A stretch of DNA of 64,000 nt from Desulfomonile tiedjei. GTDB taxonomy: Bacteria > Desulfobacterota > Desulfomonilia > Desulfomonilales > Desulfomonilaceae. This document shows positions 49,059-63,971 of the stretch, one piece after another; position 1 is the first letter of the stretch; the number at the start of each line of letters is the position of its first letter. Where the stretch lies: NCBI GenBank assembly GCA_016218715.1, contig JACRDG010000120.1:1-64000 (forward strand). Direction: 5' to 3'. A program made the translations under genes and the position numbers. The notes below the pieces were generated by a model, which saw nothing but the letters and a program-made list of their open reading frames with translations, made no database searches and had not been told where the DNA came from.

Positions 49059-49073
49059 TGTAGCCTGCCACGA

Positions 49074-49124
49074 TACATAAGTTTTACTTATGTAATCATA
49101 AGAATTAATGCTTTGACATGTCAA
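49074..49124. promoter_or_regulatory. LysR operator and lysR promoter
   Basis: A perfect palindrome TACATAAG-TTTTA-CTTATGTA lies at 49074-49094 and contains the LysR box pattern T-N11-A. A third half-site CATAAG at 49097-49102 repeats the half-site at 49076-49081 exactly 21 bases away, two helical turns. On the minus strand TTGACA (49119-49124) and TATGAT (49095-49100), 18-base spacing, form the lysR promoter, so the palindrome lies just past its start site, as in autorepression. TTGACATGTCAA at 49113-49124 is itself palindromic and supplies a plus-strand -35 with no good -10, as in activator-dependent promoters. Confidence 0.7.
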
Positions 49125-49170
49125 GGAAAATCTTGGCATTCTCGTAAGAGGTGAAATCAATCCTTCACAT

Positions 49171-49298: not shown

Positions 49299-50924
49299 AT
49301 GCCGGAAGAATATGATGGCATTATCATCGGCGCGGGCCCAAACGGATTGACGCTGGCCGCCTACCTCGCGAAGGCCGGCCTGAAGATTCTCCTTTTGGAA
49401 AAACGTTTTGAAGCGGGGGGCGGTCTGGCCACCGAACAGGTCACATTACCGGGCTTCCTCCACAACACCCACGCGGTTTACATGCCGATGGTAGATTATG
49501 CGCCTCCGCTGAAGGATTTCGAGGATTACCTGACCAAGGATTACGACCTGGAATTTGTGTTTCCCGCTCTGGTAATGGCCATGCCTTTTGCGGATGGATC
49601 GTCGCTGTGTCTGTACCAGGACGTCGACAAGACGTGCGAATCCATCGCGCAATTCTCCAAGAAAGATGCGGATACCTATCGGCGGATTGCTGACAGGTTT
49701 CGAGTCCTGACAGAGGGTTTTCTCGGCCCCGCCACGTACGAGCTACCCAAGCCCGCTTTCGAGCAGATGATCAAACTCCAGAGCACGGACGTGGGTCGAG
49801 AGATCACGGAGATGACCGAAAAAACACCTCGGGACATCATCCACGAGCTATTCGAGCACGACAAGGTGCGATGCCTCTTCCTGTATCTCACCTGTATGTG
49901 GGGACTCCATCACGACCTGGAAGGGGTTAGTTACCTCGTGCCGCTCATGATCAACCGGGCGGTGAATTATCGCCTCGTGGTGGGTGGCTCGCATCATCTC
50001 GCGCACCTCTTCACCAAGGTACTGTACCGCAATGGAGGGATGATCATCTCGCCGGTGACGGTCAAGCGGATCGTCATCGAGGGCGGGAAAGCGGTCGGCG
50101 TGGAACTCCAGGACGGAAGGCAGTACGTGGCTCGGAAATTCGTGGCGAGCAGCCTCGATCCATATCAGACGTTCCTCAAGTACGTGGGCGAAGCGAACCT
50201 GGAAGACCGGTTCGTGACCCGTGTCAACGATTGGCAGTGGGAATTCACCAGCCTGTTCCACGTGCATCTGGCGCTGGACGAGACTCCGCACCTCGCGGCT
50301 GCGAAATCCAATCCGGATCTGGATAAGGCCTTCATCACCGTGCTCGGGTACGAGACGGAGGAGGCCCTGGTGCGCCACTACGACGCGATTCATGCGGGCG
50401 AGTTGCACCCGGGCGGCTTCAACTGCAGCTTCCCGTCTCTTCATGACCCGAAGCAGGCGCCTGCTGGCCACCACACCGCGTTGATTTCACTGCACGCCCC
50501 ATACAACCTGAAGGAAGGCGGCGGCCAACGCTGGTATCGCATCCGTGAGCAAGAAGCCCGGCGATGCGTCCAGATGTTGCAGAAATATTTTCCCAACCTG
50601 ACTGACGATCACATCCTGTGGCATTACATTACCACGCCGCTGGACATCGAGAACAAGTTTGCCGACATGGTCCGGGGTTCGTTCAAACAAGGGGCGTACC
50701 TACCGCTCCAGATGGGGTATCTGCGCCCCAACGAGGACTGTTCCCAGTACGCGACCCCCGTGCAGGGGCTCTACGTTTGCGGTGCGAGCACTTTCCCGGG
50801 CGGCCTGATTACTTTCGGCCCGGGGTACAACGCGGCCTGCAGGATCGCTGAAGATCTTGGAATCGAACGCTGGTGGGGAGAGCCCGAATGCGTCCGAAGG
50901 GCAAAGGAAATGGGCACCTTATAG
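49299..50924 (+). CDS. CrtI/phytoene-desaturase-like FAD oxidoreductase 1
   Basis: A 541-residue flavoprotein of the phytoene dehydrogenase/amine oxidase superfamily. The FAD site is GIIIGAGPNGLTLAAYLAKAGLKILLLEKR (GxGxxG then acidic strand end) and the C-terminal FAD-contact region is GLYVCGASTFPGGLITFGPGYNAA. The middle domain (substrate cap) includes HHDLEGVSYLVPLMINRAVNYRLVVGGSHHLAHLF. An AAGGAGG lies at 49285-49293. It begins the operon and is paralogous to the gene at 51236. Reactions in this family include desaturation, isomerisation and amine oxidation; its substrate is unknown. Confidence 0.9.
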   Translation: MPEEYDGIIIGAGPNGLTLAAYLAKAGLKILLLEKRFEAGGGLATEQVTLPGFLHNTHAVYMPMVDYAPPLKDFEDYLTKDYDLEFVFPALVMAMPFADGSSLCLYQDVDKTCESIAQFSKKDADTYRRIADRFRVLTEGFLGPATYELPKPAFEQMIKLQSTDVGREITEMTEKTPRDIIHELFEHDKVRCLFLYLTCMWGLHHDLEGVSYLVPLMINRAVNYRLVVGGSHHLAHLFTKVLYRNGGMIISPVTVKRIVIEGGKAVGVELQDGRQYVARKFVASSLDPYQTFLKYVGEANLEDRFVTRVNDWQWEFTSLFHVHLALDETPHLAAAKSNPDLDKAFITVLGYETEEALVRHYDAIHAGELHPGGFNCSFPSLHDPKQAPAGHHTALISLHAPYNLKEGGGQRWYRIREQEARRCVQMLQKYFPNLTDDHILWHYITTPLDIENKFADMVRGSFKQGAYLPLQMGYLRPNEDCSQYATPVQGLYVCGASTFPGGLITFGPGYNAACRIAEDLGIERWWGEPECVRRAKEMGTL

Positions 50925-50935
50925 GAGACTGAACG

Positions 50936-51196
50936 ATGAAGGTCAATTCGACAGGTTTAGGAAAAACCACCATGGTGGCTCATTTCGCGGACCTGGCGAA
51001 GGTGGACGGTGAAGCGAGCGGCGCGATGAAACTCAGCATCGAAGCCACCCAACCTGTCCACTGGTCCATCAAGGCCACGGTCGGGGGAGACGACCTGAGG
51101 CAGTTCGCCCGTCTCATGTTCAAGCCGTCCAATTTGTGGTGCGTGATACGGCTTCTCCTCTTTGGCAAGAGCCTGAACACACCAGAATCTCAATGA
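50936..51196 (+). CDS. Small protein between two flavoproteins
   Basis: An 86-residue protein, 11 bases after the first oxidoreductase and 39 before the second. It has a beta-rich first half (AKVDGEASGAMKLSIEATQPVHWSIKATVGG) and a C-terminal hydrophobic helix (NLWCVIRLLLFGKS). A GGAG precedes the ATG. No family is recognised. Position suggests a partner or membrane tether for one or both flavoproteins. Confidence 0.6.
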   Translation: MKVNSTGLGKTTMVAHFADLAKVDGEASGAMKLSIEATQPVHWSIKATVGGDDLRQFARLMFKPSNLWCVIRLLLFGKSLNTPESQ

Positions 51197-51235
51197 GGAC
51201 GTACGTGCCGCGAGCTATGGTAAGGAGGTCTCTCC

Positions 51236-52900
51236 ATGGCAGATAAGACGTATGACGCCATTGTAGTCGGAGGCGGACACCAGGGAACCATTATCGCCTG
51301 TTACCTGCAACACGCGGGCATGCAGACGGTTGTATTCGAGCGACAACACGAACTCGGGGGCGGTGCGTGCGGAGAAGCGCTTCCTCTGCCCGGCTTTCTG
51401 CAGAACCCTTGTGCTCATTTCACCAGATTCTACGGACATCCCGCGTATGAGGACTTCAAGCTCAGGGACAAGGGACTGGTCTATGTGTACCCGGACCACA
51501 GCGAAGGAATGATCTACGACGACGGGGTCAGCTTCCTCGGGTACACAGCCTGGAAGGTGGTCGATCCGGATACCGGCCGGGCTGAGTTCAGCGAAGAGAA
51601 CGCGCAGAAGACCATCGATCAGATCGCCCGATTCTCCAAGCGAGATGCGGACGTGGCTTACGACCTGCTGGAGAAATACAAGAAGAAATGGCGGGCAGCG
51701 TTCCACGAATGGCGGTACAATCCGCCGACGCCGTGGGGGGTCGCGGACGCTTTCGAGCGGCTGATCGACGATCCCGATGCGCCGATTCCGCCGGAGTATC
51801 AGTTCTACACCTCGCAGCAGGTCGCGTGGGACCTCTTTGAGAGCGACTATCTGCGGACGCTCTTCATGAGGTCGTGCATGACCTCGAGCGGCGTGTTCCC
51901 CGCGGACTGCATCGGCATCTACAAGATCCTGCACACCCTGGGCCTGATTCTTTCCTGGGAACCGGCTTCCATTGCCGTTGGCGGAACCCACGCGATCACC
52001 CACGCGCTCCAGCGGGCGTTCAGCTCGATGGGCGGCGAATTTGTCGTAGAAACCGCGGTTCAACGGGCCATCATCGAAAACGGAAAAGCCGTGGGCGTCA
52101 AGCTGGCCGACGGCCGGGAGATCGCCGCGCGCCACGTGGTGGTGAGCGACTTGAACACCCCCCAGACCGTGCTCAATCTTATGGGAGAGGAGCACGTCCC
52201 CGCGAAGATAGCCCACCGGGCCAGAAACGTGCTGTTCAACCGGGCCCAGCTCTTCTGGGGCAATTTTGCGTTGCACGAGCTTCCCCAGTACACGGCAGCC
52301 AAAGACAATCCCGAGATCGGTATGTGTCCGAGGCTCAACTGGGGACCGAAGGACGCCGACTACTTCGCTACCCGCCATCAGGCAGAGCTTTTCGTCAAGG
52401 GCATACCGGAGAAGCTCGTGGTGATCGTAGCTCCCGACTCCATCTGGGACCGGACGAGAGCGCCTGAAGGGAAGCACACCATCCTCATCGAGCAGTTCAC
52501 CGCACCGTACCGCTTCTTCAGCGACAAGGAATGGCTCCGGATGAAGAAGGACATTGTAAAGATCATGCTGGAGCAGTGGTCCTGGTACGCTCCCAATATG
52601 ACTGAGGACAACCTCATCGCGTCGCACATCACAACGCCGATGGACACCAAGATGCGCAACTTCAACATGCCTCAAGGAGGCTGGACCGCGGAGGACATGA
52701 TCGCATCCCAGATGGGACGGATGAGACCGTTCCCGGAGCTGGCTCACTACCGGCTTCCGGTGAAGAACCTGTACCTCTGCTCGGCCGCGGCGCACTCGGG
52801 TCCGGGAATCGGCAGGGGGAGCGCTTACAACTGCTTCAAGGTGATCGCGGAAGATTTCGCCCTGCCCAAGATATGGGAACAAAAAGGGCGACCGTACTGA
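51236..52900 (+). CDS. CrtI/phytoene-desaturase-like FAD oxidoreductase 2
   Basis: A 554-residue paralogue of the gene at 49299. The N-terminal FAD site is AIVVGGGHQGTIIACYLQHAGMQTVVFERQHELGGG, with a His-Gln in the dinucleotide loop instead of Pro-Asn, and the C-terminal FAD region is NLYLCSAAAHSGPGIGRGSAYNCF. Central segments (GIYKILHTLGLILSWEPASIAVGGTHAITHAL) correspond to those of the first. The two may form a heterodimer or act in sequence. AAGGAGG lies upstream of the ATG at 51236. Confidence 0.9.
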   Translation: MADKTYDAIVVGGGHQGTIIACYLQHAGMQTVVFERQHELGGGACGEALPLPGFLQNPCAHFTRFYGHPAYEDFKLRDKGLVYVYPDHSEGMIYDDGVSFLGYTAWKVVDPDTGRAEFSEENAQKTIDQIARFSKRDADVAYDLLEKYKKKWRAAFHEWRYNPPTPWGVADAFERLIDDPDAPIPPEYQFYTSQQVAWDLFESDYLRTLFMRSCMTSSGVFPADCIGIYKILHTLGLILSWEPASIAVGGTHAITHALQRAFSSMGGEFVVETAVQRAIIENGKAVGVKLADGREIAARHVVVSDLNTPQTVLNLMGEEHVPAKIAHRARNVLFNRAQLFWGNFALHELPQYTAAKDNPEIGMCPRLNWGPKDADYFATRHQAELFVKGIPEKLVVIVAPDSIWDRTRAPEGKHTILIEQFTAPYRFFSDKEWLRMKKDIVKIMLEQWSWYAPNMTEDNLIASHITTPMDTKMRNFNMPQGGWTAEDMIASQMGRMRPFPELAHYRLPVKNLYLCSAAAHSGPGIGRGSAYNCFKVIAEDFALPKIWEQKGRPY

Positions 52901-52913
52901 ACGGGAGGGTGTC

Positions 52914-53669
52914 ATGGCGCGCCTCGAAGGTCGTGTGGCCATAGTCACGGGTGCAGGAAAGGGGCTCGGCAAAGCCTTCTGCCTGGGCCTCGCCCGTGAG
53001 GGCGCGGACATTGTGGCAGTGACCCGCGCGGACATGGAAGGTCTCCAGGATACTGCCAAAGGGGTGAAAGCGCTCGGGAGAGAGGCCATCGTGAGTCAGG
53101 TGGACGTCTCGAACGAGGAAGACACCCTGAGAATGGCCCGTGAAGCCTTGGCCAAATTCAGCCGGATCGACATCTTGGTCAATAACGCTGCCTATTACTA
53201 TGGGGTCACGCGGCGCTCGTTCACCGAAATCACGGGAGCCGAGTGGGACCGCATGATGGGCGTCAATGTGAAGGGACCGTGGCTCTGTGCGAGAGCAGTG
53301 TTCCCTGCGATGAAACAACAAGGAAAGGGGAAGATTATCAACCTGGCTTCCGAGGTTTTCTTTACCGGTTCCCAAGGTTTTGTCCACTACGTCTCGTCAA
53401 AAGGAGGCGTGATCGGCCTCACGCGGGCCCTGGCAATCGAGCTGGGACCGCACGGGATCTGCATCAACGCTGTGGCGCCGGGGTACACCGATACGGAAGC
53501 CAGCAGGACCATTGCCGACGTAAGCAAATATGACACGAGCCGCACCCCGCTGAGGCGGCTCGAATCACCCGAAGACCTGGTAGGCATCGTAAACTTCCTG
53601 GCCTCGGACGAAAGCGACTTCATAACCGGCCAGACCGTATTGGTGGATGGGGGTCGAGCCATGCACTGA
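52914..53669 (+). CDS. Short-chain dehydrogenase/reductase
   Basis: A 251-residue classical SDR. The cofactor motif is TGAGKGLGKAF, NNAAYYYG provides the NNAG equivalent, the catalytic Ser is in INLASEVFF, and Tyr-Lys is YVSSKGG. PGYTDTEA follows, then the FabG-like C-terminus SDESDFITGQTVLVDGGRAMH. It is an NAD(P)-dependent alcohol or ketone oxidoreductase. It begins 13 bases after the second flavoprotein, in the same operon. Confidence 0.93.
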   Translation: MARLEGRVAIVTGAGKGLGKAFCLGLAREGADIVAVTRADMEGLQDTAKGVKALGREAIVSQVDVSNEEDTLRMAREALAKFSRIDILVNNAAYYYGVTRRSFTEITGAEWDRMMGVNVKGPWLCARAVFPAMKQQGKGKIINLASEVFFTGSQGFVHYVSSKGGVIGLTRALAIELGPHGICINAVAPGYTDTEASRTIADVSKYDTSRTPLRRLESPEDLVGIVNFLASDESDFITGQTVLVDGGRAMH

Positions 53670-53951
53670 TTCCGAACGCGCGTCCAGCTCGGCTGAACGG
53701 GAAAAACAACAAGACCGTCTCATCTGGATAAGGAGTCGCCTCCTCCTCAATGTGCCCGCTCTTGGATTCATTGCGGTAGCGGACCTTGGGCCGACGACCC
53801 AAGGGGCTTGGCGATGCCGCTGCTCTCCCGACTCCTTATCCTCCCTTCCGTAGCCGGAGGTGTAACCACAATAGGGTTTCCATATAGATCGCGTAGTCCA
53901 AGAGAGCTGATTCAACGGTCACGACCAACAGTCAGGGAGGAGGATGCAAGC

Positions 53952-55631
53952 ATGAAGGTCTATGATGTGGTACCAGGCTTGGAATTCGACGCGGAGAGGG
54001 ACCTGGAGCAGTCGCCCGCATGGTTTCTCGACGCAACCCACTCGGTCCCCCCGTGGACACCCATGTTCGGGTGGTTCTGGATCAACTTCTGCCGCCATGG
54101 GATGCAGTATGGCGCGGAGAAACTCTCCTTACCCACCGTCAAAGGCTGGGACTGGCGCTTCCATAACGGTGGCGGCTATCTCACCCTGCTCCTGGTCAAA
54201 AGCGAAGAAGAAAAGCAGCGCCGTGAAGCCGGCTTTCGCAAAGCCATACTCCCGCTCATCCAGGATTATGACGGCATCTGGAACGGGTTCGTGAAAGAGA
54301 TCCTGGGCCGGTACGAAAGCCTCAAAGCACTGGACCCCGACCAGGCGACGAACATAGACTTGCTGGCGAACTTCGAAGACACGATCGCCACCTGCCGCCG
54401 CATGTGGGAAATCCACATGTACATGATGTACGGGACGTACACCGCGTACATCCTGTTCGAAAACATGTGCCGGGAACTGGTCGGCATCGACGACACTTCG
54501 CCGACGTTCCATGCACTCGTGTCCGGCTTTGACAACAAGGTCTTTCAGGTGGACCGTCGGATATGGGAGTTTTCGAAGCGAGCCAAGGAGGAAGGGCTCG
54601 CCCAAGTCATCCTTGAGACTGAAGCTCCTAATATTCGAGCAAAGCTGGAACAGACACCCAAAGGGCAGGCTTTCATGGCCGACTTCATGGCCTTTATGAA
54701 CGAGGACGGCTGGCGTATGCAGCGCATGTCCGAGATCAATCTCCCCACATGGGTGGAAGATCCTGCCCCGGCTCTCGGCATGGTCAAACATTTCCTTGCG
54801 AAAGGCGGAGGGTTCAACCTCGACGAGGAACGCAAGAAACTCGCTGACGCCCGCGTGGCCGCGGAAAAGGAAGTGTTGGCCAAAATCCCCACGGAACAGC
54901 GCGGGTGGTTCGAGCAGTTGATGCGCCTTGCCCAGAAGAGCGGTATTTTCAGCGAGGAGCACGATCATTACCTCGACCTGTACACCCACGCGATGATGCG
55001 ACGAAGCGTTCTGGGTCTTGGGAAGCGTTTTACCAACCTCGGATCTTTGGACGATCAGGAAGACGTCTTTTTCCTCATGCCGGACGAAGTTCGCCGCGCA
55101 GGGATCAATCCCGATCAATTCGATCTCCGCTACATCGTCACGCGCAGAAAAGCCGACTGGAAAGAATGGCAAAAGACTCCCAATCCGCCCGCCATTCTGA
55201 AAGAGGGGTTCGACCTGGACCAGGCCATGGGCGTGCTCGTCAAATCCAACGACCCCATTGCCTTGAAAGTGGTAGTGGGTTCCATGCCACAGGTCCGGCC
55301 GGAGTTGAAGGCCGATCTGTACGGAACGTGCGGCTCTCCGGGAGTGGCGGAAGGCCCCGCCCGGGTCGTTATGACCGAAGACGAACTCCACCTCGTCAAA
55401 GAAGGAGACATTCTGGTGGCTGTCAGCACCTCGCCGAGCTGGACGCCGGTATTCTCCGTCATCAAAGGAGTGGTGGTGGACCGGGGCGCGAGTCTCTCCC
55501 ATGCGGCCATCGTGGGTCGCGAATACGGCATCCCGGTCGTAATGAACGTCTTCGAAGGGACCGCCAAGATCAAAACAGGCCAGAGAATAAAAGTCGACGC
55601 CAACTTGGGCACCGTTTACATCCTTGATTAG
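53952..55631 (+). CDS. Phenylphosphate-synthase alpha-like / PEP-utilizer swivel subunit
   Basis: A 559-residue protein whose last about 100 residues are a PEP-utilizing enzyme mobile (phosphohistidine) domain: GCGSPGVAEGPARVV, DILVAVSTSPSWTPVF and DRGASLSHAAIVGREYGIPVVM, with His517 as the expected phosphorylated residue. The first about 440 residues are a helical domain (WEIHMYMMYGTYTAYILFENMCRELVG) like the substrate-binding domain of rifampin phosphotransferase and the alpha subunit of phenylphosphate synthase. The ATP-grasp partner is the next gene but one interval away at 55922. Start ATG 53952 follows GGGAGGAGG. It should carry phosphate from ATP to an organic hydroxyl. Confidence 0.85.
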   Translation: MKVYDVVPGLEFDAERDLEQSPAWFLDATHSVPPWTPMFGWFWINFCRHGMQYGAEKLSLPTVKGWDWRFHNGGGYLTLLLVKSEEEKQRREAGFRKAILPLIQDYDGIWNGFVKEILGRYESLKALDPDQATNIDLLANFEDTIATCRRMWEIHMYMMYGTYTAYILFENMCRELVGIDDTSPTFHALVSGFDNKVFQVDRRIWEFSKRAKEEGLAQVILETEAPNIRAKLEQTPKGQAFMADFMAFMNEDGWRMQRMSEINLPTWVEDPAPALGMVKHFLAKGGGFNLDEERKKLADARVAAEKEVLAKIPTEQRGWFEQLMRLAQKSGIFSEEHDHYLDLYTHAMMRRSVLGLGKRFTNLGSLDDQEDVFFLMPDEVRRAGINPDQFDLRYIVTRRKADWKEWQKTPNPPAILKEGFDLDQAMGVLVKSNDPIALKVVVGSMPQVRPELKADLYGTCGSPGVAEGPARVVMTEDELHLVKEGDILVAVSTSPSWTPVFSVIKGVVVDRGASLSHAAIVGREYGIPVVMNVFEGTAKIKTGQRIKVDANLGTVYILD

Positions 55632-55921
55632 GGAGCTGTTGCGGAACGCAATGCTTTTCTGAAACGTGCTACCGTGCGGGTCGATGTGCAGGATACGGGT
55701 TAAGGGCAACCAGCCCGACCGCTTAGTCTGTCAGGCATTCTAGAAGCCGTTGTATGTCGTGACGGCCCTGCCAATAGTATCCCCGTAGCACGGTCAAGGA
55801 TCATGTTGGGGTTTCCCGACAGGCTCCTCGTAATCGGTCTCAGCGGAATCGGCATGCTGCAGGGTTCGGATTCCGTGTCCGTTCCTTGCCGCATGCTGTC
55901 CGGAAGGAAAGGCTGGCCGTG
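55632..55921. other. Interval between the two dikinase subunit genes
   Basis: 290 bases without a supported gene. It is unusually long for the interior of this cluster and may contain an internal promoter or processing site; no clear hexamers were recognised. Confidence 0.3.
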
Positions 55922-56947
55922 ATGTCGAAGAAATGGATCTTCTGGTTCGAAGAGCTGTGCACCGCGGACAACGATCTGGTCGGGAAGAAATGCGCTAATC
56001 TGGGGGAAATGACCAAGCTGGGGATGAGGGTTCCCCCGGGATTTGCCATCTCCGTGGACGGGTACGAGCGATTTATGGAGGAGAGCGGCGCGGGAAGAGA
56101 AATCAGGAAATACGCTCTCGGCAATAAACATCTGTTGCATGATGTGGCCAAGCAGGTGGAAGTCGGTCGAGTGATTCGCGGGCTCATCGAAACCAAAGAG
56201 ATGCCCGGCGAAATGAGACGGGAGCTGGAGGAACAGTACGCTGAACTGTGCAGGCGCACGGGGATGGAGAATCTCGCGGTCGCCGTCCGGTCCAGCGGCT
56301 CGGTCAGTATGCCCGGCCAAATGGAGACGTACCTGAACGTTCGAGGCCCGCAAGACCTGATGGATAAAGTGATCCGAGTGTGGGGGAGCGCTTTCACCAC
56401 GCGAGCGATCGCGTTCCGGCTCGAAAAAGGAATGGAGATGGACAAGGCCCCTATTGGCGTTGCGGTACTCAAGATGGTCAATGCGAAGTGCGCGGGCGTT
56501 GTCTTGACCGTAATGCCCACAACGGGGGATACTTCCCGCATGGTGATCGAAGGAAACTGGGGCCTGGGCGAAAGCGTCGTGAGCGGCGAGATCACCCCGG
56601 ACCAATTCATCGTGGACAAGGCCCTCGGGGATTTCCAGTGCGTGATCGGTGAAAAGAACAAGATGGTCTGCTTCCACTCCACAGGAACTCATACCAAGGA
56701 GGTGCCTCGGGAATTGAGGTGCCAGCCGTGCCTCGACGAGACGGAATTGCGAGAAATCGCCCGGGTGGCCAAGCAGGTCGAAGATCATTTCCAGGTGCCA
56801 CAGGACATGGAATGGGTCGTCGATAGCGATCTTCCGTTTCCGGAGAATCTCTTCTGGGTGCAGGCGCGGCCAGCCAAGTACACCCAACAGAAGAAGGACG
56901 ATGCCGAGTACCTGGCGGAACTGATGACCCGCATCTTCAAAATGTAG
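55922..56947 (+). CDS. Phenylphosphate-synthase beta-like / PPDK N-terminal ATP-grasp subunit
   Basis: A 341-residue ATP-grasp protein corresponding to the nucleotide-binding half of PEP synthase and PPDK. Motifs are NDLVGKKCANLGEMTKLGMRVPPGFAISVDGY, AVAVRSSGSVSMPGQMETYLNV (residues about 120-140), IEGNWGLGESVVSGEITPDQFIVDK and DMEWVVDSDLPFPENLFWVQARP. It lacks the His and PEP-binding domains, so it can only make phosphohistidine on a separate subunit, namely the gene upstream. ATG 55922 is used; the frame is open to 55886. Confidence 0.9.
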   Translation: MSKKWIFWFEELCTADNDLVGKKCANLGEMTKLGMRVPPGFAISVDGYERFMEESGAGREIRKYALGNKHLLHDVAKQVEVGRVIRGLIETKEMPGEMRRELEEQYAELCRRTGMENLAVAVRSSGSVSMPGQMETYLNVRGPQDLMDKVIRVWGSAFTTRAIAFRLEKGMEMDKAPIGVAVLKMVNAKCAGVVLTVMPTTGDTSRMVIEGNWGLGESVVSGEITPDQFIVDKALGDFQCVIGEKNKMVCFHSTGTHTKEVPRELRCQPCLDETELREIARVAKQVEDHFQVPQDMEWVVDSDLPFPENLFWVQARPAKYTQQKKDDAEYLAELMTRIFKM

Positions 56948-57037
56948 AACGCGGGGTAATACGAATTTGGTTTCAAAGGGATAGTCGCTAGTATTCTTTG
57001 GAACGCGACTTGGTATGACCCCTCCGAGGAGGCAACC

Positions 57038-57697
57038 ATGGCAATCCTATTCACCCAGTACTGGGATGTCCTGCCCGGCAAGTTCGACGAATACTCCGCG
57101 TTTATTACCAACGAGTATATTCCCGAGGTAACGAAAGTGGGGCTCAAGCTCCTGGGTGGCTACTACGTGGCGGTCGGTGAAGGACCGCGTATCATTGCGG
57201 TGGCCACCGTCGACGAACAAGATTACCTGAGGAAGATCCTGTCCACTGAAGAATACCGCACCATTACCGGGAAGCTGCTTCGGATCGTGCACAAGTATGC
57301 CTGCAAGCTGTGGGTCTCCAGCGGCAGGGTGATCGAAGAGCCATACGGCATTCAGACCGGTGCGTGGAAATTCAATCAGTATTATAATGTCCTCCCCGGC
57401 GCGGAAGAGGAACACTATCGTTTCGTGAAAGATGAGTGCATACCCGGCATGAAAGAGCTGCGGGTGCCGATTACCGGAGCATGGCGTCTGCTTATCGGGT
57501 CCGGAGCACAGATCCTGGCCGAGTGCTCCGCACGCGACCTGGTGGATATCGCCAAATGCATTGACTCGGCTGAGTTCAGACGAATGGTGCGAAGGCTGAA
57601 GAAACATTTTGCCACCGATTACAGCAGTCGAATCCTGGCTCCCACAGGTCGAATCGAAATCCCTTCATTGTTGAGCGAGATGATGAAACGGTTCTAA
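57038..57697 (+). CDS. Duplicated dimeric alpha/beta-barrel (NIPSNAP/ABM-like) protein
   Basis: A 219-residue protein made of two similar halves of about 105 residues. Half 1 has QYWDVLPGKFDEYSAFITNEYIPEVTKVGLKLLGGYYVAVGEGPRIIAV; half 2 has QYYNVLPGAEEEHYRFVKDECIPGMKELRVPITGAWRLLIGSGAQILAE. That pattern matches the ferredoxin-like dimeric alpha/beta-barrel fold, here fused as a pseudodimer. Such proteins bind small hydrophobic molecules or act as monooxygenases without cofactors. GGAGG precedes the ATG. The last about 30 residues are outside the repeat. Confidence 0.75.
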   Translation: MAILFTQYWDVLPGKFDEYSAFITNEYIPEVTKVGLKLLGGYYVAVGEGPRIIAVATVDEQDYLRKILSTEEYRTITGKLLRIVHKYACKLWVSSGRVIEEPYGIQTGAWKFNQYYNVLPGAEEEHYRFVKDECIPGMKELRVPITGAWRLLIGSGAQILAECSARDLVDIAKCIDSAEFRRMVRRLKKHFATDYSSRILAPTGRIEIPSLLSEMMKRF

Positions 57698-57826
57698 GCG
57701 CCATCCAGGCATCCGAGAACACCCGGGTGGGAAATGACGAGAGGTCATCCCGCAATCGAGTCAAACTTCGGGAAATGACTATTAATACCAATGTGCGATT
57801 CAATAAGTAATATTGCTGAAAGGCGC

Positions 57827-57889
57827 TCCTGGGAGGTCTCCGGAGCGCAGTCAGGCTGTGCCGTTCGTAGCGGAGGAGACCTCCCAGGA
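57827..57889. repeat. 15-bp perfect inverted repeat within the cluster
   Basis: TCCTGGGAGGTCTCC (57827-57841) and GGAGACCTCCCAGGA (57875-57889) enclose 33 bases. As RNA it would be a very stable hairpin. It lies in the 272-base gap between two dimeric-barrel genes; a second small hairpin (ATGAC-GAGAG-GTCAT) is at 57734-57748. It may attenuate, process or stabilise the operon transcript, or be a palindromic repeat. Confidence 0.75.
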
Positions 57890-57969
57890 AAAGCCCAGAG
57901 CAGAGTCCGCGGATGTTACAAATTGAACTGCACACTGGTATAACACCTCCACGGGAAAGGAGTACCGTT

Positions 57970-58290
57970 ATGTACGTGCGTATGACGTTCTTCAAGGTGA
58001 AAGACGGACGGATGGATGATTTGCGAGACATGTACAACAGCGCGGTGATTCCAGCACACAAGAGCCACAAAGGACTGCGCTTCGTGCATCTGTTGGAAGG
58101 GCTCGAGGACAGAAGCGAGGGAATCTCCGTCACCGCGTGGGACACCAAAGCAGATGTCGATGCCTACGAAAAGAGCGGCGATTACGAAACGCTTGTCGGC
58201 AAATTTCAGGAAATGTACGCGGGAATACCGCACCTCAAATCTTACGAGGTAACCGCAAGTTCCGAACCGATCCTTCTGAGGATATTCTGA
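57970..58290 (+). CDS. Antibiotic-biosynthesis-monooxygenase (ABM)-like protein
   Basis: A 106-residue single dimeric alpha/beta-barrel domain: MYVRMTFFKVKDGRMDDLRDMYNSAVIPAHKSHKGLRFVHLL, then AWDTKADVDAYEKSGDYETLVGKF. The Trp-Asp and the SGDYE region are typical of ABM proteins. AAAGGAG precedes the ATG 57970. It is 11 bases before the HD protein. Its role is unknown; with the duplicated neighbour it may bind the pathway's ligand. Confidence 0.88.
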   Translation: MYVRMTFFKVKDGRMDDLRDMYNSAVIPAHKSHKGLRFVHLLEGLEDRSEGISVTAWDTKADVDAYEKSGDYETLVGKFQEMYAGIPHLKSYEVTASSEPILLRIF

Positions 58291-58300
58291 GGCAGCCTCG

Positions 58301-58897
58301 ATGGAACCTACATACCTGCGCATCTTCGAGCGTGCAAAGGCGTTTCTCGACACGCGAGACAACGAACTCCACACCAGGATTGCCTCGGCGTTTGCCGAGA
58401 GACTCCTCGATGCCGAGGGAGGGGATGCACGGGTGGTGCTCCCCGCGATTCTCCTCCACGATGTCGGATGGAAGAGCGTCCCCGAAGATCTGCAGCTCAA
58501 GGCATTCGGTCCGGGCCACAACGATATGACGATCAACCGAATCCACGAGGTGGAAGGAGCCAAAATTGCCCGACGCCTCCTCGAAGAGGTGGGGTACGAC
58601 CCGAAACTGATCGATGAAATCGTGGAGATTATCCTGGAGCATGACTCCAGGACGAAAGCCCTTTCCCTGAACGACGCGATCGTCAAAGATTCTGACAAGC
58701 TCTGGCGATTCTCCGCGGAGGCGCTCCAGGTCGATCCCAAGCGGTTCAGGATCGATCCCGGCGTCCACACGCGCTGGCTGAAGCTGCAGATAGACGGATG
58801 GTTCATCACTGAGACCGGAAAACGCCTGGCCCGACAGGAACAAAGGCAGAGGGCAGTCCAGTTCGGAGTCGCGGACCCCGATGAGGAAGACGTTTGA
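58301..58897 (+). CDS. HD-domain phosphohydrolase-like protein
   Basis: A 198-residue HD-superfamily protein. Ordered metal-ligand motifs are the N-terminal helix HTRIASAFAERLL, LLHDVGW (HD), HEVEGAKIA, EIILEHDSR and IVKDSDKLWRF. The set fits hydrolysis of a phosphate ester. Its placement after a phosphotransferase suggests a house-cleaning phosphatase, but it may be a different hydrolase. It is 10 bases from the following AOR gene. Confidence 0.85.
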   Translation: MEPTYLRIFERAKAFLDTRDNELHTRIASAFAERLLDAEGGDARVVLPAILLHDVGWKSVPEDLQLKAFGPGHNDMTINRIHEVEGAKIARRLLEEVGYDPKLIDEIVEIILEHDSRTKALSLNDAIVKDSDKLWRFSAEALQVDPKRFRIDPGVHTRWLKLQIDGWFITETGKRLARQEQRQRAVQFGVADPDEEDV

Positions 58898-58907
58898 GGA
58901 GGCATGA

Positions 58908-60743
58908 ATGTCCGCATACACCGGATATCTCCTGCGGGTGAACCTTTCATCCGGGTCGACGAACAGAGAGCCGATCCCGGTTGAAGTGCAGCGGCGGTTT
59001 GTCGGCGGCCGAGGCTTCGGGATCAGGTATCTGTTCGGAGAGACGGACGGAGGGATCGATCCGCTCGGTGAACGGAACAAACTGCTCTTCATGCCCGGTG
59101 TTTTGGCCGGAACCAAAGCGCTCGGCTTCGGCCGATGGATCGTGATGACCCGGAGCCCACTCACCGGAGGTCTGGCTCGGGCGTGCGGAGGCGGCAACTT
59201 TGCCGCGTTCATGAAGTTCGCTGGATGCGACCTCGTCATCATAGAGGGTAAGGCCGAACGCCCCTCGTATCTCTTCCTGCACGAAGGCGGCACCGAGATC
59301 AGGAGCGCGGCGGATCTCTGGGGACTCGACACGGAGATGACGCAAAAGGCGCTGCAGGAAAAGCATGGCCAGCGTACCCAGACCGCCTGCATCGGACCAG
59401 CCGGGGAACGGCTCGTACGATTCGCGACCATTACCCACGGCACGCGGACCGCTTCGCGGTGCGGTGTCGGCACGGTGATGGGTGCAAAGAACCTCAAGGC
59501 CATCTCGATATCGGCAAGACCCAAGCTCCTGGAACCTGTCGACAAAGAAGGGTTCGACGGGCTGCAAAAGGAGCACAGCACTATTCTCCGGGACCACAAA
59601 CGACGGGTGAAGATGCACACCTTCGGCACGACCTTCCTCGCACACATGATGCGAGACGCGGGGATCCTGCCGTTCAAGAACTTCCAGACCGGGAACATCG
59701 AAGCCATCGAGAATCTCTTCACCGACGCGTACGCGGAAATGCGGAAAGGAACCCACGGCTGCTACAACTGCATGACCCGATGCGGCCAGGTGCACGAGGT
59801 GAAGGAAGGCCCCTACACGGGAGCATGGAGCGAAGGGCCGGAATACGAGACCATATGGGCCTTCGGGCCTCAGGTTGCAAACACCGATGTCGGTGCGACG
59901 GTCCGTGCCGACAGGTTGTGCGATCTCCTGGGGATTGACACCATCAGCACCGGGAGTGCTATCGGCTTTGCCATGGAGCTGTTCCAGCGAGGCATCATCA
60001 CGACTCAAGATACCGATGGTATCGAACTCAACTGGGGCGATCATCGGGTCATGCTGGATCTTATCCACAAGATCGCCTACCGGGATGGGTTCGGCAAACT
60101 GCTCGGGGAAGGGACCAAGAGGGCGGCCGAACACATCGGCAAAGGAGCTGAAAGGTATGCGATGCATTGCAAGGGAATGGAACTGCCGGCATACGAACCC
60201 CGTGCGGCAAAGGGTCACGGACTGAGCATGGCGACGTCGAACATAGGCGGCAGTCACATGTACGGGTACGCGAGGCAGGAAATATCCGGAAAGAAAGACC
60301 CCCGACCCGTTGACCGGTTCGCTGACGAAGGGAAAGGCGATATCGCCGCGTACAATCAGATCGACAAGGGGCTGGAAGAAGTCGGCATCCTGTGCAATTT
60401 CGCGGATTCGGGACTCACGTACGAGCTGTTGGGCGGCCTTTACGCCACCGCCACCGGGTTCGACGAACTGCGAGAAGTCCCGGCCCTGCGACGTCTCGGC
60501 GAGAGAATCGTGTGCCTGGAGCGGTGTTACAACGTGAGGGAGGGTTTCACCCGGAAGGATGACACCTTGCCCGAACGAATGCTGACCGAACCCCTCCCCG
60601 ATGCAGGGCCGGCCACCGACCAGGTGGTGAGAAACCTCGACGCGCTGTTGGACGAGTACTACGATTATCTCGGCTATTCTCGGGATGGGGTCCCGACTCC
60701 TGAGAAGCTGAAGGAACTGGGTCTGGACGACATCTCGCTTTGA
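58908..60743 (+). CDS. Aldehyde:ferredoxin oxidoreductase family tungstoenzyme
   Basis: A 611-residue AOR-family protein with bis-pterin tungsten chemistry. The N-terminal pterin domain has RRFVGGRGFGIRYLF and GRWIVMTRSPLTGGLARACGGGNFAA; GPAGERLVRFA and ASRCGVGTVMGAKNLKAI follow; the 4Fe-4S ligands are Cys285, Cys288, Cys292 (CYNCMTRC) and Cys496 (GILCNF). Most members oxidise aldehydes to acids with ferredoxin; others act on aromatic rings or are uncharacterised. The presence of this low-potential enzyme in the operon shows the pathway is anaerobic. The stop overlaps the next frame's upstream extension only. Confidence 0.94.
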   Translation: MSAYTGYLLRVNLSSGSTNREPIPVEVQRRFVGGRGFGIRYLFGETDGGIDPLGERNKLLFMPGVLAGTKALGFGRWIVMTRSPLTGGLARACGGGNFAAFMKFAGCDLVIIEGKAERPSYLFLHEGGTEIRSAADLWGLDTEMTQKALQEKHGQRTQTACIGPAGERLVRFATITHGTRTASRCGVGTVMGAKNLKAISISARPKLLEPVDKEGFDGLQKEHSTILRDHKRRVKMHTFGTTFLAHMMRDAGILPFKNFQTGNIEAIENLFTDAYAEMRKGTHGCYNCMTRCGQVHEVKEGPYTGAWSEGPEYETIWAFGPQVANTDVGATVRADRLCDLLGIDTISTGSAIGFAMELFQRGIITTQDTDGIELNWGDHRVMLDLIHKIAYRDGFGKLLGEGTKRAAEHIGKGAERYAMHCKGMELPAYEPRAAKGHGLSMATSNIGGSHMYGYARQEISGKKDPRPVDRFADEGKGDIAAYNQIDKGLEEVGILCNFADSGLTYELLGGLYATATGFDELREVPALRRLGERIVCLERCYNVREGFTRKDDTLPERMLTEPLPDAGPATDQVVRNLDALLDEYYDYLGYSRDGVPTPEKLKELGLDDISL

Positions 60744-60826
60744 CCGACCAAAGCACGCTCCCCCGCCGCGACAAGGCAAACCGAGCGAACCCCGATGGGT
60801 ATTTTGTCCGTCCCAACGAGGTCACC

Positions 60827-62065
60827 ATGAGCCCCACGATAGCTGTTGTCGGGACCCTGGATACCAAGGGAAGAGAATTCGTTTACCTCAAGAGCCTCAT
60901 CGAAGCCAATGGATGCGAAACCCTGGTGATGGACGTCGGGGTGTTTCCGCAGTCCGAGCTGACCCCGGACATTTCGAGAGAGGACGTCGCCGCTGCCGGC
61001 GGCATGCCGATCGCGGATCTGCTCGCGGCGAAGGACCGATGCCTCGCGGTCAGGATCATGATGGAAGGGGGTGCCCGACTCCTCAGGGATCTCTACGATC
61101 AGGGGCTTTTCTCGGGGATAGTCTCAATGGGGGGCGGCACCGGGACCAACATCGTCTCGGGGATCATGCGTGCCATGCCCGTGGGCGTGCCGAAGCTTAT
61201 CGTCTCCACCGTCGCCGCCAGGGATATGAGTCAGGTCATCGGCAGCAAGGACATTACCCTGATGCACGCAGTGGCCGACCTCCAGGGGCTGAACTTCATG
61301 ACCCGCAAGATTATCGGGGACGCAGCCGCGGCCATCGTGGGCATGGTACATGCAGCCAACAAGATCGTGCCCCAGGGGCGCGTCATCGGGCTGACTTCCT
61401 ATGGACCCTTGAATCAATGCGCGTTCCTGGCTGCGGACATGTTAGCGGACTACGGGTACGAGGTGGTTCCTTTCCACGCAGTGGGCCCGGGGAGCATGTC
61501 CATGGAGGATCTCATCGATCAGGGCGTGATTCATGGAGTCCTGGATCTGTCCCTTCACGAATTTGCGGACCAGATCCATGGCGGGTACTGCGCGAACATC
61601 GGGCCTAACCGGCTCGAGACCGCGAGCAGAAAGGGGATCCCCCACGTGATCCTTCCCGGCGGCCTGGACATGATTGCCTTTGAGTGCACGTCCATCGACG
61701 GTATGCCCGAGAAATTGCGCAACCGGCGCTTTCTCTCCCACGATTTCAGGTCGTTCGTTCGGAGCACCGCGGAGGATCTCGTGCTGCTCGCCTCGCTCAT
61801 CGCAGAAAAACTCAACCGGGCCGCTTCCCCTCCAACCGTGGTGCTCCCGCTCCAGGGGTGGTCCAAGGCCGACGCACCCGGCGCGCCCTTCTTCGATCTC
61901 GAGCTGGACAAAGTTTTCATCAAGGAGCTGAAAGCCCGGCTGTCGACTCGAATCAAGGTGATCGAGGTGGACGCAAATATCAACGACCCGCTCTGCGCCC
62001 GAACCGCCGTCGAAGAACTTCACGCGCTGATGCTGGCCAATTCCAGGTCGCAATCCAAGGAATAA
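60827..62065 (+). CDS. UPF0261 (Tm-1-like ATP-binding) family protein
   Basis: A 412-residue protein. ATG 60827 (MSPTIAVVGTLDTKG) follows ACGAGGT; the frame is open upstream to 60740, overlapping the AOR gene. Signature segments are VSMGGGTGTNIVSGIMRAMPVGVPKLIVSTVAARD and ANIGPNRLETASRKGIPHVILPGGLDMIAF, with GRVIGLTSYGPLNQC. UPF0261 proteins resemble the N-terminal domain of plant Tm-1, and ATP binding is reported for that protein. The reaction is not established. It is the last gene of the same-strand cluster. Confidence 0.88.
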   Translation: MSPTIAVVGTLDTKGREFVYLKSLIEANGCETLVMDVGVFPQSELTPDISREDVAAAGGMPIADLLAAKDRCLAVRIMMEGGARLLRDLYDQGLFSGIVSMGGGTGTNIVSGIMRAMPVGVPKLIVSTVAARDMSQVIGSKDITLMHAVADLQGLNFMTRKIIGDAAAAIVGMVHAANKIVPQGRVIGLTSYGPLNQCAFLAADMLADYGYEVVPFHAVGPGSMSMEDLIDQGVIHGVLDLSLHEFADQIHGGYCANIGPNRLETASRKGIPHVILPGGLDMIAFECTSIDGMPEKLRNRRFLSHDFRSFVRSTAEDLVLLASLIAEKLNRAASPPTVVLPLQGWSKADAPGAPFFDLELDKVFIKELKARLSTRIKVIEVDANINDPLCARTAVEELHALMLANSRSQSKE

Positions 62066-62134: not shown

Positions 62135-63181
62135 CTACTTCCCGGGAGGGACCAGTATACTCTGGAGGTCGGTGATGCCCTGGAGGTTGGCTTTCTTTGC
62201 GAACCTGTCATCGATGAGGCCGGAGATGTCGTTTGATTGGATGAGCTTGAATTTGACCATCTGATCCGCGAGGTGCTGCATCTCCCGTTCGGTCGGGGCA
62301 AACTGATCGAAAACCGTACGGTTCGGGGGATTCTCCAGCGCATACTCCACAAATTCGACCGGCTGATTCCAGTACTGCGCAACGATTCTTGCAGCCTCTT
62401 TCAGATGCGTCTGCGCCCACAAGCCCGAGCGGGCCGCGCTCTGCACCAGTAGAGCGACAAGGTCCGGGTTCCTCTCGATGAGATCCTGCCGGACCAGCAT
62501 GAGATTGCAGATGAAACTGGGCCAGACCTCTTCCACATAGTACAGGACTTTTGCCTCGCCGGCAGAGACCGACCTGGCGGCAAAGGGCTCGCCGACAAAA
62601 TAGGCGTCCAGCGCGCCGGCGGTGAGAGCAGACGGCATATCGGGCGGGTTCATCTCCACGATGTTCAGATTGGCTCCGGACAGTCCGAATTTTTCCGCGA
62701 GCTGCCTCGTCGCGAGGTTGTGGCCGGAAAACCGCATGGGGACGGCAATGGTCTTGCCGGCCAGATCGCCGAAGGTCTTGACGTCGAGTCCCTTGCGATA
62801 CACGAGGGTGCTCTCGTGACGGTTGCCGATGTAGACGAGCTTGACATCCGCGCCCTGCTGATGGAGCACGACGGACAACGGCGCAATAATGAACGCGGCC
62901 TGTATATGCCCGTTTCGCAGGGATTCCCCCATCTCGGCAAAGGACGAGAACTTCAGGGCCTCAAATCGAACCCCGGAGCCTTCCTGACTCGCGTAGTCCA
63001 GAAGCGGCGCGGCAAGATTCGCAATCACCGGCATGTACCCCATGCGAACGATCTGCCGATGACCGTGCTCCATGTTAAGCTCGTAGTGCAGCCATGAGAT
63101 CAGCGCGAGCCAGCTCAGGGCGATGGCCGCGATGGAAGCGGCCGAAGAACCCCGCATGCGGCTGAGAACATCAGAGCGCAT
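62135..63181 (-). CDS. ABC transporter substrate-binding protein (NMT1/SsuA-like)
   Basis: A 348-residue binding protein of the nitrate/sulfonate/taurine-type family. Residues about 10-32 form a signal anchor (AASIAAIALSWLALISWLHYEL) without a lipobox Cys. The binding core shows RMGYMPVIANLAAPLLDYASQ, SFAEMGESLRNGHIQAAFIIAP, LAGKTIAVPMRFSGHNLATRQLAEKFGL and PSALTAGALDAYFVGEPFAARS. Such proteins bind small anions, sulfonates or pyrimidine-like compounds. It overlaps the ATPase by 11 bases and converges on the catabolic cluster. Confidence 0.9.
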   Translation of the reverse strand: MRSDVLSRMRGSSAASIAAIALSWLALISWLHYELNMEHGHRQIVRMGYMPVIANLAAPLLDYASQEGSGVRFEALKFSSFAEMGESLRNGHIQAAFIIAPLSVVLHQQGADVKLVYIGNRHESTLVYRKGLDVKTFGDLAGKTIAVPMRFSGHNLATRQLAEKFGLSGANLNIVEMNPPDMPSALTAGALDAYFVGEPFAARSVSAGEAKVLYYVEEVWPSFICNLMLVRQDLIERNPDLVALLVQSAARSGLWAQTHLKEAARIVAQYWNQPVEFVEYALENPPNRTVFDQFAPTEREMQHLADQMVKFKLIQSNDISGLIDDRFAKKANLQGITDLQSILVPPGK

Positions 63182-63971
63182 AGTGGACTCCCAGGCCTAC
63201 GTACACGTCTCGCCTCAATGCCTCCAAATCAGGCTCTCGCATGAAATCGCGGGGATGAGGGAACCCGAGCGCCAAATCGAGTTGAATCGTGGCCGGACGG
63301 TCGGTGAACACCACCACGCGGTCGGCCATAACCAGTGCTTCATCGATGTCATGGGTAATAAAGATGACCGTTTTCTTGAAGTATTCATGCATGTTGATGA
63401 TTTCTTCCCGCATCTTGAGTCGGGTCAAGAAATCCAGGCCTGCAAAAGGCTCGTCCATGAACAGGACTTCCGGGTTGACCACCAGTGCTCGTGCCAGCTC
63501 GGCTCGCCGTTGCATGCCGCCGGATAGCTGATGGGGATACTGGTGCTCAAAACCGGAAAGGTTGACGATATCGATGTACTCGCTCACCCGTTCGGCCTGT
63601 TCTCGCCTGTCCTTCATGTGGCGGAGGCCGAGCCTGACGTTCTCTTCCACGGTGAGCCAGGGGAGTAGCCCATTATGCTGAAACACGAAGATGTTGTCGG
63701 AACTCGGCCCGGTCACCTCGTTTCCGTCAATGATCACATTTCCGGAGGTGCTCCTTTCAAAACCCGCGATAATGCGCACCATTGTGGTCTTGCCGCAGCC
63801 GGAAGGCCCGAGGACACAGACCAGTTCTCCGTCGTAGACTTCGAGGTCGATGTGGTTCAGCACGAGCAGTTCATCGTCCGCTACGGGGTCCGCCTCGGAA
63901 TTGAACTGCCAGGCGACCCCGCCTCGACGCAAATAGGTCTTCGTCAGGTCTTGGATTAGGATATGTCCCAC
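63171..63971 (-). CDS. ABC transporter ATPase (SsuB/TauB-like)
   Basis: A 266-residue ATPase. Walker A GPSGCGKTT, Q-loop QHNGLLPWLTVEENV, signature LSGGMQRRAELARAL, Walker B VLFMDEPFAGLD and H-loop ITHDIDEAL are all present. The start is GTG 63971; the N-terminus has an inserted segment (RGGVAWQFNSEADPVADDE) before the first strand. The permease gene probably lies beyond the right edge: the last 26 bases of the window are compatible with its 3' end (stop TAA just before GTG). Operon order would be permease-ATPase-binding protein. Confidence 0.93.
   Translation of the reverse strand: MGHILIQDLTKTYLRRGGVAWQFNSEADPVADDELLVLNHIDLEVYDGELVCVLGPSGCGKTTMVRIIAGFERSTSGNVIIDGNEVTGPSSDNIFVFQHNGLLPWLTVEENVRLGLRHMKDRREQAERVSEYIDIVNLSGFEHQYPHQLSGGMQRRAELARALVVNPEVLFMDEPFAGLDFLTRLKMREEIINMHEYFKKTVIFITHDIDEALVMADRVVVFTDRPATIQLDLALGFPHPRDFMREPDLEALRRDVYVGLGVHYAL

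Follow-up and report, generated by a model that had tools for sequence, protein, structure and literature searches.

What would an anaerobic bacterium do with a gene cluster that combines paired flavoproteins, a kinase and an aldehyde-oxidising enzyme? The question is raised by positions 49,299 to 62,065 of a 64,000-nucleotide stretch of Desulfomonile tiedjei DNA (assembly GCA_016218715.1, contig JACRDG010000120.1), hereafter the window, which lies on contig C80 of a 5.55-Mb genome. A sequence-only reading of the window had proposed that these genes form one redox cluster of an anaerobe, serving as a catabolic or modification route for a hydroxylated compound. In this work, we find that the gene cluster is genuine and widely conserved among uncultured bacteria that live without oxygen, and the comparative evidence supports both the single co-conserved redox cluster and the catabolic route for a hydroxylated compound. 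It is similar to the genes known for phenol activation, except that oxidising enzymes stand in place of the carboxylating one, and its probable role is the breakdown of a methylated phenol, or of a related hydroxylated compound, by an undescribed route. More specifically, our tentative reading is a catabolic operon that works without oxygen on a ring hydroxy compound bearing an oxidisable methyl group, the most likely substrate being methylphenol-like.

Open reading frame (ORF) and family searches found on the forward strand all ten genes that had been proposed, in the families named. An eleventh gene, of 86 codons for amino acids (aa), had been missed, and the "dikinase", right as to family, is in fact two genes encoding a split phosphohistidine kinase of the phenylphosphate-synthase type. 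The features are given below; the likely starts of the PpsA-like (53952), PpsB-like (55922), ABM (57970) and UPF0261 (60827) genes were judged from conserved N-termini.

48129 to 49160, minus strand: LysR-type regulator, an ORF divergent from the cluster, start at about 49058 by eye
49077 to 49124, no strand: two palindromic operators, ATAAG-N5-CTTAT at 49077-49091 and TTGACATGTCAA at 49113-49124
49299 to 50924, plus strand: flavoprotein A (flavoA, g01), CrtI/CtmAB-like, motif GFLHNTHA with His58
50936 to 51196, plus strand: 86-aa protein with no assigned family, between flavoA and flavoB
51236 to 52900, plus strand: flavoprotein B (flavoB, g02), paralogue of flavoA, Cys59 in place of the covalent His
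52914 to 53669, plus strand: short-chain dehydrogenase/reductase (SDR), PF13561 at E 1.7e-58
53952 to 55631, plus strand: kinase alpha (PpsA-like, gene 4), PF00391, with a C-terminal phosphohistidine mobile (swivelling) domain
55922 to 56947, plus strand: kinase beta (PpsB-like, gene 5), PPDK ATP-binding domain (PPDK_N), PF01326 at E 1.1e-85
57038 to 57697, plus strand: g06, tandem alpha/beta-barrel protein, no Pfam match, AlphaFold2 pLDDT 89
57970 to 58290, plus strand: ABM-type alpha/beta-barrel protein, PF03992 at E 9.7e-9
58301 to 58897, plus strand: HD-domain metal phosphohydrolase-like protein, PF01966, AlphaFold2 pLDDT 93.5
58908 to 60743, plus strand: aldehyde:ferredoxin oxidoreductase (AOR), PF02730 and PF01314, PDB 9g7j at E 1e-123
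60827 to 62065, plus strand: UPF0261 (Tm-1-like) protein, PF06792 and PF23189

The gaps across the eleven genes are 11, 39, 13, 282, 290, 90, 272, 10, 10 and 83 bp, so that "mostly short gaps" describes seven of them and leaves out three of about 280 bp. Neither promoter-like sites (3 observed, 4.7 expected) nor terminator-like sites (12 observed, 12.9 expected) are enriched in the cluster. The clear operators noted behind the LysR gene were borne out by alignment: the palindrome TTGACATGTCAA (49113) is exact in 9/9 aligned loci, window included, and ATAAG-N5-CTTAT (49077) in 7/9, being changed in L065 and L119. A promoter-like match lies on the LysR strand at 49124-49095.

The sequence-only reading had staked itself on co-conservation of the gene set, and co-conservation is what we found. 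We searched 297 genomes of the phylum, the window's own included, in which close kinase alpha orthologues (64-82% identity), mostly from other families, lie in neighbourhoods that retain much of the gene set. Sixteen genomes carry kinase alpha at >=60% identity (G113 as a fragment; weaker paralogues, such as that of G238 at 42%, were dropped). Fifteen of these carriers also hold flavoB, which at >=47% identity occurs in 18 of the 297 genomes (p=2e-21; this and the following p-values are too small, since related genomes are not independent); one match, in G003 (39%), was left out of this count. The single carrier without flavoB is a 76%-complete genome holding a kinase fragment. Homologues of flavoA are more widespread (32/297 genomes). 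In the sole other genome of the window's family in this sample, the metagenome-assembled genome (MAG) G102, g01-g09 and the LysR gene keep the same order and orientation at 56-88% identity (locus L039). This synteny, together with the co-occurrence, rules out a chance neighbourhood.

A scan of named genomes with two peptide patterns of kinase alpha yielded 65 further loci, all centred on this gene by construction and every one from MAGs, so that no cultured carrier was found among them. The carriers' names point to Desulfobacterota, Actinomycetes and Thermoleophilia (Actinomycetota), Anaerolineales and Chloroflexi (Chloroflexota), Gammaproteobacteria and others. With the window included (66 loci), kinase alpha, being the query, is present in 64, followed by kinase beta (55), SDR (47), flavoB (42), g06 (34), flavoA and HD (26 each), LysR (25, with 53-60% identity in Desulfomonile-type loci), AOR (21), UPF0261 (19) and ABM (13). 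UPF0261, rightly counted as a member by the sequence-only reading, is the loosest one and frequently stands elsewhere within the locus. These counts are lower bounds, because many contigs are cut, and they are approximate, the neighbour families coming from an ORF caller (>=90 aa) with blastp/Louvain clusters; a recount by tblastn with all cluster members served as a more sensitive check. The samples overlap, several loci sharing one MAG (e.g. L077 and L082) and L063 coming from the same record as G102. In four loci (L053, L054, L055 and L056), more distant kinase alphas (39-44%) stand beside cluster-type genes, namely kinase beta plus flavoB, SDR, AOR or UPF0261, which suggests several versions of the pathway within one phylum.

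Both the class of the kinase and its kinship with the phenol enzymes are well supported. Kinase alpha has the phosphohistidine mobile domain and the catalytic His of the alpha subunit of phenylphosphate synthase (PpsABC), the latter (SHAAIV-RE) being invariant in 13/13 kinase alphas and aligning with Azoarcus PpsA, and a separate PPDK ATP-binding beta subunit is likewise present. A plasmid search with the kinase query led to Azoarcus KH32C, in which a phosphoenolpyruvate (PEP)-utiliser / PEP-binding / CBS trio is followed by annotated ppcBDAG; the window alpha and beta are 26% and 40% identical to its PpsA and PpsB, respectively. In quick trees (LG+G4, SH-aLRT only), kinase alpha forms a single clade apart from phenol PpsA (1 change among 96) and the kinase betas fall in between phenol PpsB sequences (at least 4 changes among 83, in a tree that drew long-branch warnings). 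From this interleaving, phenol-type betas can apparently work with the cluster alpha, which agrees with a shared ATP-to-His chemistry. A role as a genuine phenylphosphate synthase was nevertheless rejected, as the cluster holds no carboxylase and the same genome has a separate phenol locus. Ppc, UbiD and UbiX gave no match in the window; across the 66 sequences UbiX, PpcD and PpcG gave none, PpcA one weak match and PpcB three, two of them the edge of a neighbouring phenol locus. A PpsC-like CBS protein adjoins the cluster in 5/65 loci. Such a kinase is described in Desulfatiglans as converting aniline as well as phenol (PMC7500099), so that non-phenol substrates are possible.

Kinases of this type also came up in other settings. 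In Rhizobium leguminosarum pRlBT01c (L125, 9914-19073), PpsAB-like genes are followed by genes for a biotin/lipoyl protein, a biotin carboxylase, a HAD hydrolase and an acetoacetate-CoA ligase, an arrangement that resembles an operon for acetone carboxylation dependent on a kinase and biotin, and in Thermomicrobium (L124) a PpsAB-like pair adjoins a biotin carboxylase on the opposite strand. A distant PEP-utiliser kinase gene, 27% identical to Rhizobium PpsA, lies in L129 (G047:C90:20001-40000) among apparent ABC importer genes (by eye), with SDR and AMP-ligase matches near.

The kinship extends from the kinase to the genomes that carry it. The phenylphosphate carboxylase gene PpcB occurs in 13/16 kinase-alpha carriers and in 33/281 others (46 genomes in all; p=2.3e-9). 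The aromatic marker BamA, counted in the 65 genomes over the curated cut-off out of 72 at E 1e-100, occurs in 10/16 carriers against 55/281 others (p=0.00036), and among these 65 BamA-positive genomes PpcB is present in 10/10 carriers against 26/55 others (p=0.0014). Of 20 chosen carrier handles (19 genomes, G102 being the same as G299), 18 (17 genomes) hold PpcB at >=48% identity, G302 has only weaker matches and G307 none. The genes are also physically close in several genomes (L126 with L039, L130 and L062). In G102 the cluster (L039) directly adjoins a phenol locus (L126) of equal orientation, a Ppc/UbiX block of G309 stops about 4.4 kb before flavoA, and in L062 genuine PpsAB lie upstream on the opposite strand. 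In G259, which falls below the carrier cut-off, flavoA-flavoB are on the contig of its phenol locus, and the contig ends soon after. The separate phenol locus of the window's own genome (L127, G000:C9:150001-170000) has the order LysR-UbiX-x-PpsA-PpsB-PpcB-AMP ligase-UPF0261-PpsC.

Forty of the 49 PpcB places in the phylum, some of them in carriers and three in one genome, were compared with the cluster. They contain LysR (34), UbiX (29), UPF0261 (24), AMP ligase (22), g06-like (7) and HD (4) genes and no flavoA, flavoB or ABM; in one of them the nearest kinase query is the window alpha, at merely 29-31%. The cluster thus has the appearance of a phenol-type locus with flavin oxidation, SDR and aldehyde oxidation in the place of carboxylation, and this points to a carbon already present on the substrate as the source of the carboxyl group.

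FlavoA and flavoB are 30% identical over 557 columns. FlavoA (GFLHNTHA) fits the consensus G-F-L/R-X-N/S-T/L-H-A described for the His that binds the covalent flavin of the sterol delta-24 desaturase (PMC11061730), and this His is kept in 26/27 sequences. FlavoB reads GFLQNPCA at this place, with Cys in 24/24 flavoA-type loci, and is predicted to carry a cysteinyl or an unlinked flavin. In the loci that have an electron-transfer flavoprotein (ETF) the flavoB residue is Cys in 11, His in 5, Gly in 1 and a gap in 1; the five with His (L077, L074, L076, L078 and L080) indicate that the residue has switched within the family. A homologue of the 86-aa protein lies between flavoA and flavoB in 24/24 loci holding both, window included, or in 23/24 when self queries are left aside, the exception (L112) carrying two flavoA copies. 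A purine-rich stretch stands 5' of the ATG of the 86-aa ORF, and two of the homologues gave no match when searched against Pfam. A plasmid search with flavoB returned 16 records at only 24-28% identity. Carotenoid biosynthesis (CrtI/CrtO) was rejected, flavoA being far under the NCBIfam cut-offs (200 of 1000 bits for CrtO, 90 of 238 for the CrtI family) and flavoB lower still; the GlcD/VAO-type flavoprotein of anaerobic benzene degradation belongs, by its description, to another family (PMC13416013).

Two functions of the cluster are exchanged between loci. AOR-type genes occur in 26 loci and a molybdenum aldehyde-oxidoreductase-like enzyme (XDH) or an NAD-dependent aldehyde dehydrogenase (NAD-ALDH) in 19, none having both by neighbour clusters; the tblastn recount gave 31 and 22 of 66 loci with one overlap (p=4e-7). 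On a tree of 63 kinase alphas, with states taken from the first count, this amounts to at least 7 changes, and within one tight clade L063 and L064 have AOR, L060 and L084 have XDH, with the g01-g07 order unchanged. The replacing XDH is a fused molybdenum protein whose best-scoring model is that of an aldehyde oxidoreductase, at 833 bits; the 4-hydroxybenzoyl-CoA reductase model gives 476 bits, and both scores are under the cut-offs. Since unrelated aldehyde oxidisers replace each other, the step is most simply aldehyde to acid, and this well-supported step is probably what the AOR carries out. Likewise, neither count has a locus holding both flavoA (26 loci) and ETF (20 loci), the tree shows at least 4 changes between them, and the ETF-type loci have a NarI-type membrane Fe-S oxidoreductase. 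Given this mutual exclusion, flavoA may be the electron-accepting partner of flavoB, replaced elsewhere by ETF and the membrane oxidoreductase. The repeated changes on the trees are better evidence for these swaps than the p-values, which kinship inflates.

The window AOR gene has AFOR_N and AFOR_C domains and matches PDB 9g7j at 417 bits; its match to BamB (4z3w, 184 bits) is far weaker, which rules out a class II benzoyl-CoA reductase. Six loci (L094, L095, L099, L104, L115 and L117) have HdrA-like, second-AOR and ferredoxin genes upstream of the kinase, an arrangement that suggests an electron-bifurcating AOR complex.

Among the remaining proteins, the HD protein has its expected metal ligands, H24, H53, D54, H82, D115 and D132 being invariant across 19 sequences and H114 almost invariant. 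The nearest folds of its predicted structure by Foldseek (2pq7, PgpH and HD hydrolases including YpgQ, with one match at E<=0.001) favour a phosphohydrolase; the best match of its sequence in a PDB search had E 0.054. Foldseek matches of the predicted g06 structure are of the ABM / anthrone oxidase-like / HemQ type and place it in the broad barrel superfamily only. UPF0261 has Tm-1 and 9mpy as solved relatives, and the papers listed for this family name tell, in their titles and abstract openings, of no bacterial function. The presence of UPF0261 in 24/40 PpcB loci of the phylum is a lead to the function of this orphan family.

How might these genes act together? From gene content and kinship we infer a substrate, an order of steps and the individual reactions as follows. 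Kinase alpha and beta would phosphorylate the hydroxyl of the substrate with ATP as the phosphoryl donor. FlavoA, the 86-aa protein and flavoB would form a flavin dehydrogenase that turns the methyl carbon, with water, into a primary alcohol, acting by hydroxylation rather than desaturation, and electrons would leave via flavoA or, in other versions, via ETF and the membrane Fe-S oxidoreductase to the quinone pool. Next, the SDR would oxidise the primary alcohol to the aldehyde and the AOR the aldehyde to the acid, passing electrons to ferredoxin. The HD protein would remove the phosphate and the barrel proteins would bind or isomerise an intermediate. Finally, a CoA ligase, which is found beside the cluster in some relatives and in the phenol locus on contig C9 in the window's genome, would pass hydroxyaroyl-CoA to the benzoyl-CoA pathway. 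It is tempting to speculate that phosphorylation gives the energy for a limonene-dehydrogenase-type reaction with low-potential acceptors. A broader proposal, which we put forward as a rather doubtful possibility, is that of an undescribed pathway coupling a split phosphohistidine kinase to a flavin C-H hydroxylase built as a heterodimer with unlike flavin sites (A having His and B having Cys) and a constant 86-aa partner, by which such a reaction would become possible in low-potential sulfate-reducing or syntrophic bacteria of at least four phyla by name.

Several observations weigh against the methylphenol-like reading. We know of no enzyme pair that couples phosphorylation of a ring oxygen to methyl oxidation, and such phosphorylation before methyl oxidation is chemically not obviously helpful. 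Kinase alpha is just 26% identical to Azoarcus PpsA, the window has no PpsC (CBS subunit) partner, and flavoB is without the covalent His. In the tblastn recount, exclusivity has exceptions in L085 (AOR and XDH matches) and L109 (XDH and ALDH matches), and that of XDH against ALDH alone is non-significant (p=0.36); besides, 14/66 loci, many on cut contigs, show no AOR, XDH or ALDH. The phenol link is not absolute, 3/16 carriers being without a PpcB match and 6/16 without BamA at the cut-off. Finally, AOR-like genes (33-36%) in 4/40 PpcB loci and XDH-family genes in 11/40 indicate that these families are not strange to phenol loci, although the latter may, by their mostly split form, be 4-hydroxybenzoyl-CoA reductase.

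The main rival explanation is an ATP-dependent dehydration of a tertiary alcohol, in which the kinase would phosphorylate such an alcohol on a terpenoid or a sterol side chain, elimination of the phosphate by the HD protein or one of the barrel proteins would leave an alkene, flavoA/B would hydroxylate or desaturate the allylic position, and SDR and AOR would yield the acid, as in the cholesterol side-chain cascade of Sterolibacterium. This has the closest published logic, by the descriptions of a phosphorylated tertiary alcohol, alkene, allylic hydroxylation, aldehyde and acid in PMC11061730 and PMC8449060, and the flavoA motif is that of the allylic-acting limonene dehydrogenase and delta-24 desaturase. 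We nonetheless consider it unlikely: the kinase type, regulator, UPF0261, barrel and CoA ligase are common to phenol loci, which the cluster tracks, and no molybdenum C25-type hydroxylase was seen among the frequent neighbour families that were named. Moreover, the 25-hydroxysteroid kinase (25-HSK) is reported to use a sequential ternary-complex mechanism (PMC8449060), whereas the window kinase has a phosphohistidine domain; the terms "phosphoenolpyruvate synthase", "PEP synthase" and "phenylphosphate synthase" have 0 occurrences in the main text of that paper. The presence of PpcB in 13/16 carriers and the neighbourhood in G102, G309 and others would also suit an accessory phenol cluster, whose aryl phosphate is carboxylated by a phenol-locus carboxylase encoded elsewhere while the redox genes act on a by-product or some other compound. 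The chances of this are slim, since in both the window's genome and G102 the PpcB has a PpsAB set of its own, 3/16 carriers are without a PpcB match, and flavoB is the closer companion of kinase alpha (15/16).

The direction of flow could also be the reverse. AORs are reversible and the carriers look, by name, like strict anaerobes or syntrophs, so that a reductive or detoxifying route can be drawn up in which AOR reduces an acid to the aldehyde, SDR forms the alcohol and the flavoproteins then act on the product as reductases or isomerases. However, AOR is replaced by XDH-type oxidoreductases or NAD-ALDH, which normally oxidise, and ETF with the NarI-type membrane Fe-S oxidoreductase suggests outward electron flow, making this route improbable. 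Least probable of all, to the point that we give it little credence, is a biosynthetic cluster for polyketide, carotenoid or quinone tailoring, where CrtI-like proteins, PPDK-like ligases and ABM barrels occur too. The kinase halves do show NCBIfam similarity to prodigiosin ligases and the flavoproteins to CrtO/CrtI, and the g06 fold resembles an anthrone oxidase-like protein, but all these family matches are far under the model cut-offs, and among the named frequent neighbours there is no synthase gene, CoA ligases, ETF and aldehyde oxidisers prevailing instead.

Around the cluster, a linked ABC importer proved not to be conserved: an NMT1-type binding protein and an ABC ATPase lie at 62138-63971 (minus strand), convergent with the operon, and across the 65 loci the binding protein had no match and the ATPase query only weak, scattered ones. 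Elsewhere in the window, all on the minus strand, are long ORFs of 681 and 639 aa without a Pfam match at E 0.001 (40894-42936 and 27427-29343) and a heparinase II/III-like protein flanked by two TPR proteins (23143-25581).

If the methylphenol-like reading is true, strict anaerobes have a further solution for phenolics, in which an existing methyl group is oxidised instead of the ring being carboxylated, three orphan families (UPF0261, the g06 barrel and the 86-aa protein) are tied to anaerobic aromatic metabolism, and genes so far met by the scan only in MAGs gain testable roles. According to PMC12583861, limonene-dehydrogenase-type chemistry depends on an acceptor of positive potential and may be inoperable in systems that are sulfate-reducing or methanogenic. 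Coupling to ATP would resolve the problem raised there, although phosphoryl activation as the answer is speculative.

How does the cluster compare with known systems? With PpsABC and the phenol-carboxylation loci (Azoarcus KH32C; Thauera and Desulfatiglans as described in PMC7500099) it shares the same two-subunit phosphohistidine kinase. LysR, CoA ligase and UPF0261, and sometimes g06-like and HD genes, are common to the cluster and the Desulfobacterota phenol loci; in contrast to these, the cluster is without PpcABCD/UbiX and PpsC and has paired flavoproteins, SDR and an aldehyde oxidase instead. p-Cresol methylhydroxylase (PCMH), a VAO-family flavocytochrome, would give the same net result as the proposed route, methyl to aldehyde with water; neither flavoA nor flavoB matched a PCMH-type model among the matches listed (for flavoA, 25 of 32 families). 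The 25-hydroxysteroid kinase cascade of Sterolibacterium follows the same logic of ATP-dependent activation, C-H hydroxylation, aldehyde and acid, and is set apart, by its description, by a sequential-mechanism kinase and molybdenum hydroxylases.

For the flavoprotein pair, the closest likeness in published descriptions is to CtmAB of Castellaniella and the delta-24 desaturase of Sterolibacterium, which are likewise two adjacent homologous flavoproteins: CtmA and CtmB are phytoene-dehydrogenase-like and 27% identical (PMC4109377), and the desaturase subunits, with CtmAB as their nearest characterised enzymes, are 26% identical (PMC11061730), against 30% for the window pair. The covalent-His consensus, as published, is also that of the window subunit A; it is not found in both subunits, subunit B having Cys. 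In addition, and unlike CtmAB, the window pair is separated by the 86-aa gene, and no CtmEF-type ferredoxin/reductase is among the window genes. The earlier statement that no described pathway combines these families stands in so far as nothing in the literature searched, largely outside subscription papers, joins a phenylphosphate-type kinase and CtmAB-type flavoproteins in one pathway. Yet the cluster is not unrelated to known pathways, because its kinase is of the phenylphosphate-synthase type, several of its accessory genes also occur in phenol-carboxylation loci, and flavoA has the covalent-flavin motif of limonene dehydrogenase and the sterol delta-24 desaturase.

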